In this document: piece by piece, positions 11,102-14,166 of the stretch
Numbering within the stretch: the stretch's first letter is position 1
Layout of the letters: every line of letters starts with the position of its first letter
Assembly: GCA_003164095.1 (NCBI GenBank)
Contig: PLRX01000036.1
Span: 1 to 64,000 of the forward strand
Length of the DNA stretch: 64,000 nucleotides
Origin: Acidimicrobiaceae bacterium
Lineage (GTDB): Bacteria > Actinomycetota > Acidimicrobiia > Acidimicrobiales > RAAP-2
Direction: 5' to 3'
Position numbers and translations under genes: made by a program
The notes under the pieces: generated by a model
The model's database searches: none
Told to the model about the DNA's origin: nothing
Seen by the model: the letters and a program-made list of their open reading frames with translations, nothing else

Positions 11102-12892
11102 GTGACCAAGGACCGGGACGAGCTGTACGGGTTGCATCTGCGCGGGACCGACCGCCCCATGCCGTTCATCAACCCCTACCGCAAGACGGGGGAGCTGAAC
11201 GAGATCGAGCGGTTCAAGCTCGAGCGGCACCCTCTCGAGATCGCCGACGCGATCATCGACACGTACTCGAAGGAGGGTCCTGCCGGCATCGCCAAGGTGC
11301 CCGGCGAGGTCGAGCGCCTCAAGTGGGCCGGCGTCTACCCGCAGAAGCAGGGCGGCGACAACTTCATGATGCGGGTCAAGGTGCCCGGTGGGTTCCTCAC
11401 CGCACCCCAGGCCCGGGAGATCGGTGTGGCCGCAGACGCCTTCGGCGAGGGCCCCGACGGCACCGAGTCGCGGATGTTCGGCGCCCGCTACGCCGACCTC
11501 ACGACCCGCCAGACGGTGCAGATCCACTGGCTCCGGATCGAGGACATCCCGCGGATCTGGCGGCGGTTCGCCGCAGTCGGGCTGACCACCGTCCAGGCCT
11601 GTGGCGACTCGGCCCGCAACGTGCTGTGCTGCCCCGTCTCCGGCGTGGACGCCGACGAGGCGTTCGACGCCCTGCCCATCGCCCGGGCCGTCTCCGACTT
11701 CTTCACCGGGAACCGTGAGTACGCCAACCTGCCCCGGAAGTTCAAGATGTCCGTGTCGGGCTGCACCGAGGACTGCGCCCAGGCCGAGATCAACGACATC
11801 GGGCTGTGGCCGGCACGCGCCGTGGACGGCTCCCTCGGGTTCAACCTGCTGGTGGGCGGCGGCCTGTCCGACGGCGAGCGGATGGCCTCGGACATCGACG
11901 TCTTCGTCGCCCAGGATCAGGCCGTCGAGGTGACCCGGGCCGTCGCTCAGCTCTTCGGTGAGCTCGGCAACCGCGAGAACCGTGGCCTGGCCCGCATGCG
12001 GTACCTGGTCCAGGAGCTCGGCCCGGAGGGCTTCCGCGAGGAGCTGGCGAAGCGGGCCCGCTTCGACCTCGTCCCCGCGGGCGAGGAGCTGACCCGGCGC
12101 TACCGCGGGGACCACGTGGGCGTCCACCGCCAGAAGGAGGACGGCTACTTCTACGTCGGCTGCTCCGTCCCGGTGGGGCGGATGCAGGGTATGGAGCTCG
12201 TCGAGGCGGCGCGGCTCGCCGACGCCTACGGCGACGGGACCCTGCGGGTCGGCACCGACCAGAACATCACCTTCACCGGCGTCCACGGCGACAAGCTGGA
12301 CGGACTGCTCGCCGAGGAGCTGCTCGCCAAGTACTCGCCGTTCCCGGGACCGTTCAGCCGTGGCGTCGTGGCGTGCACCGGGTCCGAGTTCTGCCGCTAC
12401 GCCATCGTCGAGACCAAGGAGCGTGCGGTCAAGTGGGCCCGCTTCCTCGACGACCAGCTGGCCGGTGAGCCGGTGGGCGCACCTCCGACGCCGGGGGAGT
12501 TCTCGCCCAAGGGGGACGACGCCGGCGTGATCCGCATGCACTTCTCCGGATGCTCGGCCAGCTGTGCCCAGCCCCAGATCGCCGACATCGGGTTCCGCGG
12601 CGACGTCGCCCACGTGGGCAACCACCTGTCCGAGGCCGTCGACATCGGGATGGGCGGGTCGCTCGGCGCAGACGCCGGCTTCATCGACTGGATCGAGGGC
12701 GCCCGCCCGGTCAACGACGTGCCCGACGCCCTGCTCCGGGTGGTGCGCCGCTACCAGTCGGAGCGGCGTGCCGACGAGCCCTTCCACAACTGGGCCCGTC
12801 GGGTGCCGAACGACGAGCTACGGGCCACCCTTTCCGCCGAGGGCACCGGCACACCGGTCAGCCTGGGCACGAAGCCGGGAGGTGGTGCATGA
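11102..12892 (+). CDS. Siroheme [4Fe-4S] sulfite/nitrite reductase (ferredoxin type)
   Basis: LTTRQTVQIHWLRIEDIPRIW, CGDSARNVLCCPVSGVD, KFKMSVSGCTEDCAQAEINDIG, ACTGSEFCRYAIVETK, MHFSGCSASCAQPQIADIGFRG. Confidence 0.93.
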   Translation: MTKDRDELYGLHLRGTDRPMPFINPYRKTGELNEIERFKLERHPLEIADAIIDTYSKEGPAGIAKVPGEVERLKWAGVYPQKQGGDNFMMRVKVPGGFLTAPQAREIGVAADAFGEGPDGTESRMFGARYADLTTRQTVQIHWLRIEDIPRIWRRFAAVGLTTVQACGDSARNVLCCPVSGVDADEAFDALPIARAVSDFFTGNREYANLPRKFKMSVSGCTEDCAQAEINDIGLWPARAVDGSLGFNLLVGGGLSDGERMASDIDVFVAQDQAVEVTRAVAQLFGELGNRENRGLARMRYLVQELGPEGFREELAKRARFDLVPAGEELTRRYRGDHVGVHRQKEDGYFYVGCSVPVGRMQGMELVEAARLADAYGDGTLRVGTDQNITFTGVHGDKLDGLLAEELLAKYSPFPGPFSRGVVACTGSEFCRYAIVETKERAVKWARFLDDQLAGEPVGAPPTPGEFSPKGDDAGVIRMHFSGCSASCAQPQIADIGFRGDVAHVGNHLSEAVDIGMGGSLGADAGFIDWIEGARPVNDVPDALLRVVRRYQSERRADEPFHNWARRVPNDELRATLSAEGTGTPVSLGTKPGGGA

Positions 12893-14166
12893 AGGCCTAC
12901 CGCCTGCGCGAGGAGATCAACGGGATCGAGGAGCCGCCGGGCAAGACCTGGTTCTTCGAGCTCCAGGCCGGGGTCATCGACGCCGGACGCTGCATCCAGT
13001 GCGGCACGTGCGTGGCCGCCTGCCCGTCGAACTCCATCGGGATCGACGAGGACACCGACCTGCCCGAGCTGGTCAAGATGTGCACGGGCTGCTCGCTCTG
13101 CTGGGACTTCTGCCCCCGGGGCGGCCTCCGCTACGAGGCCCTGTGGCCGCCGTCGACGGTGCTGCCCGGTGCCTCGGCCGACGACGTGGCCGTCGCCTCC
13201 GTCGAGCGGGTCGACGCCAGCGACACCTACTGGAAGATCACGGGCGGGCCGCCCGGCGACGGCCTCGGCGCCGTCACCGAGGCGTACGCAGTACGGGCGG
13301 GTGCCCGTCCCGACGGGGCGCAGGACGGCGGTGTGGTGTCGGCGCTGCTGATCGCCGCCTTGGCCGCGGGCGACATCGACGGTGCCCTCGTCACCCGGCC
13401 GAGCGACGACCCGGAGGAGCCCTGGAAGGGCGTGGCGCACCTGGCCACCACGGCGAAGGAGATCGTCGACTCCGCCGGGTCCTTCTACAACCAGACCATG
13501 GCGCTGGCCGAGCTGGACCTCTCGAAGTACGACCTGCCGGCCAAGCCACGCATCGCCGTGGTCGGGACGCCGTGCGAGATCCAGGGCATCCGGGCCATGC
13601 AGTCCCGCCGCTGGCCGACCGGCGCCCACCGGATCGACGCGGTGGTGCTGACGATCGCCCTGCTCTGCACCAAGAGCTTCGACTACCGGGGCCTGATGCT
13701 GGACCTGCTCCAGAAGGACCGCGGCATCGACATCGAGCGCGTGTCCAAGGTCGACGTCATCCGGGGACGGATGATCGTCGAGTACCGCGACGGCGAGCTG
13801 GCCGTCGACGAGCCGATCAAGAACTTCCACGGCGCCGCCCTGAAGGGCTGCGACGAGTGCGCCGACTTCCTCGGCCGCAGCGCCGACCTGTCGGTGGGCA
13901 GTGTGGGGTCGATCGACGGATGGAGCAGCGTCCTGGTGCGCTCCGAGCGGGGCCACCGAGCCCTGGACAATGCCCGCGGCCGCCTCGACTTCCGTGACCT
14001 CGACACCCCTGAGGCACTGGTGAAGCTGGACGCCTTCGACAAGCGGGTGGCCTTCGACAGCCTGCGCCGGCCGTTCGACCCGGACGCGCCGCTGTTCATC
14101 GACTACGCCGAGCACATCGCCAACTACGAGGGCACCGACCGCGCCCCCGTCGTGGCGGGCCGCTGA
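12889..14166 (+). CDS. Coenzyme F420 hydrogenase beta subunit-like (FrhB/FpoF family) protein with 2x[4Fe-4S] ferredoxin domain
   Basis: CIQCGTCVAACPSNSI and CTGCSLCWDFCPRGGLRYE ferredoxin motifs, then DGGVVSALLIAALAAGDIDGALV, VGTPCEIQGIRAMQ, CTKSFDYRGL, GCDECADFLGRSADLSVGSVGS; ATGA overlap with the upstream sulfite reductase. Confidence 0.88.
   Translation: MKAYRLREEINGIEEPPGKTWFFELQAGVIDAGRCIQCGTCVAACPSNSIGIDEDTDLPELVKMCTGCSLCWDFCPRGGLRYEALWPPSTVLPGASADDVAVASVERVDASDTYWKITGGPPGDGLGAVTEAYAVRAGARPDGAQDGGVVSALLIAALAAGDIDGALVTRPSDDPEEPWKGVAHLATTAKEIVDSAGSFYNQTMALAELDLSKYDLPAKPRIAVVGTPCEIQGIRAMQSRRWPTGAHRIDAVVLTIALLCTKSFDYRGLMLDLLQKDRGIDIERVSKVDVIRGRMIVEYRDGELAVDEPIKNFHGAALKGCDECADFLGRSADLSVGSVGSIDGWSSVLVRSERGHRALDNARGRLDFRDLDTPEALVKLDAFDKRVAFDSLRRPFDPDAPLFIDYAEHIANYEGTDRAPVVAGR

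Follow-up and report, generated by a model that had tools for sequence, protein, structure and literature searches.

In the F420-dependent sulfite reductase Fsr of methanogens (PDB 7np8, 7npa), one chain combines a siroheme reductase with an FrhB module that carries two [4Fe-4S] motifs at its N-terminus; the reductase half consists of one Dsr-type repeat into which a ferredoxin domain is inserted. Haloarchaea were predicted to have a two-gene counterpart, aFsr, composed of an aSir subunit and an Fsr-N-type subunit (Susanti and Mukhopadhyay 2012, PMC3448663), and the Fsr-N homologues named in a tree legend of that paper include Thermobaculum terrenum and, from Rubrobacter xylanophilus, Rxyl_0964. 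Our literature search, which left subscription journals mostly outside its reach, found neither an assay of any aFsr nor a later paper devoted to it. Assimilatory reductases of the NirA/SirA type (Mycobacterium, PDB 1zj8) are ferredoxin-dependent and have no FrhB-like partner gene. FrhB-type subunits with a two-cluster N-terminal domain are also known from the F420-reducing CODH and formylmethanofuran dehydrogenase of Ca. Ethanoperedens (PDB 8riu, 8rja; PMC11493965), i.e., on enzymes that use ferredoxin elsewhere. In the tables of a 2021 F420 review (PMC8498797), the bacterial F420 enzymes belong to the FDOR, LLHT and Fno types, and its list of FrhB-type redox-coupling enzymes is drawn from Euryarchaeota only.

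The window (the whole 64,000-nt stretch of DNA analysed here) contains cysH, sir and an frhB-like gene, adjoining in that order on the plus strand (Table 1). We consider it quite probable, judging from sequence comparisons, that sir and the frhB-like gene together encode an aFsr-type enzyme, a putative assimilatory sulfite reductase dependent on F420H2. The observations behind this reading are the gene order, motifs and conservation, the clade shared with haloarchaea, the F420 genes and the linkage to them in Rubrobacter. As the two-gene aFsr idea is already published for haloarchaea, the window pair is a further, bacterial member of a predicted family; what is added here is the wide and strict pairing in Acidimicrobiia and Rubrobacteria, a separate clade of paired Sir proteins and an operon link to F420 biosynthesis. 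An initial annotation of this DNA had already noted that the stop of sir overlaps the start of the frhB-like gene and that the pair follows cysH, and both points were confirmed from the sequence. The coding sequence of sir opens with GTG and that of the frhB-like gene with ATG, the latter immediately preceded by GGGAGGTGG, and the start of cysH is probably the one tabulated, a longer reading from 10236 being possible. CysH itself keeps the CC motif of iron-sulfur APS reductases, and GCAPTT stands in place of the GCxPCT that is usual in these enzymes; the same GCAPTT occurs in nearly all Acidimicrobiia relatives listed, and the fourth cluster cysteine seems to have been lost.

Table 1 Features of the cysH-sir-frhB locus (window coordinates, amino acid numbering per protein)
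Feature	Position	Strand	Basis
cysH, (P)APS reductase, 238 aa	10368..11084	+	NCBIfam PRK02090, E=6e-70, above its cut-off
sir, predicted assimilatory-type siroheme [4Fe-4S] sulfite reductase, alpha (aFsr-alpha type), 596 aa	11102..12892	+	Pfam NIR_SIR/NIR_SIR_ferr; PDB NiR/NirA relatives; paired-clade tree
Arg136, predicted sulfite-binding residue	11507..11509	+	NiR alignment; R in 40/40 paired rows having a residue there
Arg172, predicted sulfite-binding residue	11615..11617	+	NiR alignment and paired-row conservation, as for Arg136
Lys213-x-Lys215, sulfite-type Lys/Lys pair	11738..11746	+	Alignment with 3b0l; invariant in 41/41 paired rows
CTGSEFC, first half of siroheme-[4Fe-4S] motif CX5C...CX3C	12374..12394	+	C425, C431 invariant
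CSASC, second half of siroheme-[4Fe-4S] motif	12551..12565	+	C484, C488 invariant
ATGA shared by sir stop and frhB-like start	12889..12892	+	Sequence
frhB-like gene, predicted electron-input subunit (aFsr-beta type), 425 aa	12889..14166	+	Pfam FrhB_FdhB_N/C and Fer4; best PDB relatives Fsr N-half, F420-reducing CODH subunit, FrhB
N-terminal [4Fe-4S] motif 1 (C35, C38, C41, C45)	12991..13023	+	Invariant, 44-row alignment
N-terminal [4Fe-4S] motif 2 (C65, C68, C71, C75)	13081..13113	+	Invariant, 44-row alignment
FrhB core; C229, C260, C321, C324 = FrhB C104, C134, C192, C195 (cluster beside FAD)	13312..14004	+	Alignment with 3zfs; invariant
R292-G293-R294 = FrhB turn K165-G166-K167, proposed F420-phosphate holder	13762..13770	+	294 R/K in 44/44 rows; 292 R/H/K in 43
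GSVGS = FrhB S209-V210 loop contacting F420 ring	13897..13911	+	S338, V339, G340 invariant, 44 rows

By its family matches (Pfam NIR_SIR 1.5e-52, NIR_SIR_ferr 1.6e-35) and predicted active-site residues, Sir is a duplicated aSir/NirA-type, i.e., assimilatory, reductase. Against PDB structures it matches NiR at 1e-89 and NirA at 4e-67, and Fsr weakly (1e-8 to 1e-5). It has the fold and active-site residues of NirA/SirA, with ca. 34-41% identity to actinobacterial SirA, yet falls in a separate clade, and R136, R172, K213 and K215 together with the four siroheme-[4Fe-4S] cysteines are invariant in paired and unpaired Sirs alike. The Arg/Arg/Lys/Lys set is shared with Fsr too, whereas the two enzymes differ in the type of reductase and in the number of chains, one in Fsr and two here: sir and the frhB-like gene lie in different reading frames, and no single-chain fusion of the two occurs among 78 loci checked. 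We rejected an origin by fission of an Fsr gene, as the window reductase is not of the Dsr type found in that enzyme. The initial annotation had proposed a split F420H2-dependent assimilatory sulfite reductase; on the genomic evidence an F420H2-fed, two-gene assimilatory enzyme is the best-supported reading, and the derivation from a split Fsr had to be given up.

The substrate deserves separate attention, since the second lysine of the pair (K215) corresponds to Asn in plant nitrite reductase (alignment with 3b0l), which makes sulfite the likelier substrate. That the enzyme instead reduces nitrite with F420H2, or serves chiefly to detoxify sulfite outside sulfate assimilation, appears very unlikely to us. 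Such a role would agree with the name 'ferredoxin--nitrite reductase' given by NCBI to the haloarchaeal alpha subunits, with the rhodanese-like parts on two of these (one beside nosZ) and with the ANME FsrII, which proved to be a nitrite reductase (PMC9295563), but it is at odds with the sulfite reductase Lys-Lys pair, with the presence of cysH 5' of sir in most bacterial loci and with the Rubrobacter loci, where sat and cysC follow 3' and siroheme genes are nearby.

The partner protein matches FrhB_FdhB_C (7.9e-36), FrhB_FdhB_N (2.7e-18) and two Fer4 motifs, so that the two [4Fe-4S] motifs and the FrhB motifs attributed to it by the initial annotation are borne out. The N-terminal motifs fit CxxCxxCxxxC (residues 35-45 and 65-75), all eight cysteines being invariant, and the FrhB core lies C-terminal to both. 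Over this core the closest solved relatives are all F420 enzymes: the Fsr N-half (7e-37; ca. 25-30% identity to Fsr in the FrhB part), the F420-reducing CODH subunit (2e-36) and FrhB (3e-31). The Ca. Ethanoperedens subunits share with it the combination of an FrhB-type protein with a two-cluster N-terminal domain, and differ in the partner enzyme and in the direction of electron flow. Of the residues whose roles are described for FrhB, including the F420-contacting S209-V210 loop (PMC3591093), Tyr76 is kept throughout the 44-row alignment and Lys75 is replaced by Phe or Tyr. The basic turn proposed to hold the F420 phosphate reads R-G-R or similar, except in the one haloarchaeal protein examined, where it reads as non-basic (DVLNGDMMV). 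With the four core cysteines, the S-V loop and Tyr76, minus Lys75, the subunit carries the FAD, [4Fe-4S] and F420-site residues of the FDRC family.

HCAR, which is ferredoxin-dependent, has the same fold as the FrhB-like protein. Our structure model of the latter is middling (pLDDT 64, pTM 0.71), with an N-terminal cluster domain modelled too poorly for the spacing of the clusters to be read from it; the fold comparison made with this model retrieves the same relatives as the sequence, with HCAR at a Foldseek E of ca. 1e-14, so the fold alone is no proof of F420. The subunit could accordingly be conceived as an adaptor or flavin storage unit for Sir, fed by reduced ferredoxin (like HCAR or the BciB vinyl reductase) or by NAD(P)H, with F420 uninvolved, and the ferredoxin dependence of the NirA/SirA relatives of Sir would be in keeping with this. 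We regard it as unlikely, given that an FAD module would be superfluous for a ferredoxin-fed Sir, that the sequence match to HCAR is marginal (E=0.055 vs 1e-37 for Fsr) and that the Rubrobacter operon links the pair to cofD, cofC and cofE. On the same marginal match, and despite the common fold, an assignment to the chlorophyll-type FrhB homologues (HCAR/BciB) was rejected.

The initial annotation had suggested looking for the pairing of the two genes in other Acidimicrobiia. It was found in all 78 relatives uncut by a contig end, some of them from outside that class. A scan of genome contigs yielded 80 related loci (Acidimicrobiia, Rubrobacter of the Rubrobacteria and one Chloroflexota MAG), with sir directly 5' of frhB in 78 and frhB at the contig end in the remaining two (L056, L059). 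In 69 of the 78, a reading with a 1-4 nt overlap of the two genes is possible, a count biased towards overlap by our choice of the start codon nearest the sir stop, and cysH lies 5' of sir in most bacterial relatives. Across the phylum this sir clade is present in 36 of 396 genomes and this frhB clade in exactly the same 36; 82 genomes have other SirA matches and lack this frhB clade, three of them (G087, G167, G274) with a divergent pair (39-41% for frhB) beside siroheme genes. With 78 of 80 loci paired and both clades confined to the same 36 genomes, we rejected the idea of chance neighbours.

The same pair occurs on haloarchaeal plasmids, with the aSir-type alpha gene directly followed by the Fsr-N-type beta gene as in the predicted aFsr. 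Both window subunits are 42-53% identical to these plasmid-borne pairs and cluster with them in the trees, separated from unpaired SirA and from the remaining FrhB proteins; the haloarchaeal rows are plasmid-borne pairs rather than sequences from the genomes cited by the 2012 paper. The paired Sirs form a clade of 42 rows (support 100/98) separate from the unpaired SirA of Mycobacterium and Streptomyces. One row of this clade, L157, was included as an unpaired Sir; its contig stops right after sir, leaving no flank in which to judge a partner. The window pair differs from aFsr in its bacterial host and in being joined to cysH (in Rubrobacter also to F420 biosynthesis genes), and neither the rhodanese part of some alphas nor the long N-terminal extension of the Haloferax mediterranei beta is present in it. 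This extension (L121 5479-7203, length per the annotated start codon) comprises ca. 170 residues with repeated Cys/Gly/Ser-rich stretches and is absent in bacteria. The two haloarchaeal alphas annotated as rhodanese-like are at L123 1326-3866 and L168 1544-3943, the former with a long rhodanese-like N-terminal part followed by the reductase, and the Natronococcus pair adjoins nosZ.

A check of the genome for F420 biosynthesis, proposed in the initial annotation, for which a lack of such genes would have counted against the idea, recovered FbiC (466 bits, CofH half), CofD (310 bits) and NpdG/Fno (197 bits) in the same assembly, all above curated cut-offs in family searches, FbiC and CofD being on contigs other than that of sir-frhB. 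F420 synthesis in the own genome is necessary but weak evidence, because nearly all Acidimicrobiia encode it, and for the same reason co-occurrence within that class carries little weight. CofH was above cut-off in 38 of 50 carriers of the pair and CofD in 10 of the other 12 (together 48/50); in the phylum sample, which overlaps with these 50, the corresponding numbers were 29 of 36 and 5 of 7 (together 34/36). Each sample thus has two carriers with neither protein above cut-off, all of them drafts, one of the phylum pair being rated 90% complete. CofH is more frequent in carriers (29/36) than in other genomes (159/360; Fisher p=3e-5), a difference weakened by shared ancestry, as most carriers belong to one family. 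The genome also encodes a second FrhB-like protein of 376 aa (L087 8176-9303, minus strand, corresponding to ca. 35200-36300 of contig C125 of G000), from a separate clade common in Actinobacteria; its gene adjoins apparent genes for a histidine phosphatase and a DUF3090-type protein. Among PDB structures this second protein matches the F420-reducing CODH subunit best (E=1e-49), and it is perhaps, by sequence, another bacterial F420 enzyme.

A closer link to F420 is seen in Rubrobacteraceae only, where the genes lie on a single strand in the order cofD-cofC-(aroG)-cofE-cysH-sir-frhB-sat-cysC (gene families confirmed in L149). Wherever the flank is long enough (13 distinct loci), CofE lies 5' of the pair, and in all 14 genomes that have fbiC and the pair on one contig the two are 8-16 kb apart; for comparison, unpaired SirA and fbiC are 0.28-4.4 Mb apart in 12 genomes. 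As all these loci belong to one family, the linkage may represent one evolutionary event rather than 14. The aroG-type DAHP synthase gene within the F420 biosynthesis cluster was seen in two Rubrobacteraceae genomes (L149 3820-4878; L150).

For the window pair we infer that the two subunits would form a complex, with FAD bound in the FrhB-like one, F420 as donor, electrons flowing towards Sir and sulfite as substrate. F420 would be recycled to F420H2 by NADPH via NpdG/Fno; F420H2 would dock in the FrhB-like subunit and pass its hydride to FAD, which would split it into single electrons for the [4Fe-4S] cluster of the FrhB core, then the two N-terminal [4Fe-4S] clusters and finally the siroheme-[4Fe-4S] centre of Sir. 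There, sulfite made by CysH would take up six electrons, giving sulfide for cysteine synthesis, and the FrhB-like subunit would replace the ferredoxin of NirA/SirA and the CysJ flavoprotein of E. coli.

We lean, with some reserve, towards the broader view that whole bacterial lineages (Acidimicrobiia, Rubrobacteria) depend on F420H2 as the obligate donor for sulfate assimilation. The enzyme would then be the first of the FrhB family (FDRC) to work outside Euryarchaeota, and F420 would be genetically coupled to sulfur assimilation in these lineages. If F420H2 does feed a bacterial sulfite reductase, the 2012 aFsr prediction becomes testable in a named bacterial strain, Rubrobacter taiwanensis, one contig of which (L063) has cofD, cofE, cysH, sir and frhB. 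It would also explain why F420 biosynthesis genes are kept beside the sulfate-assimilation genes of Rubrobacter, and F420 would gain a role in the core metabolism of non-methanogen bacteria.
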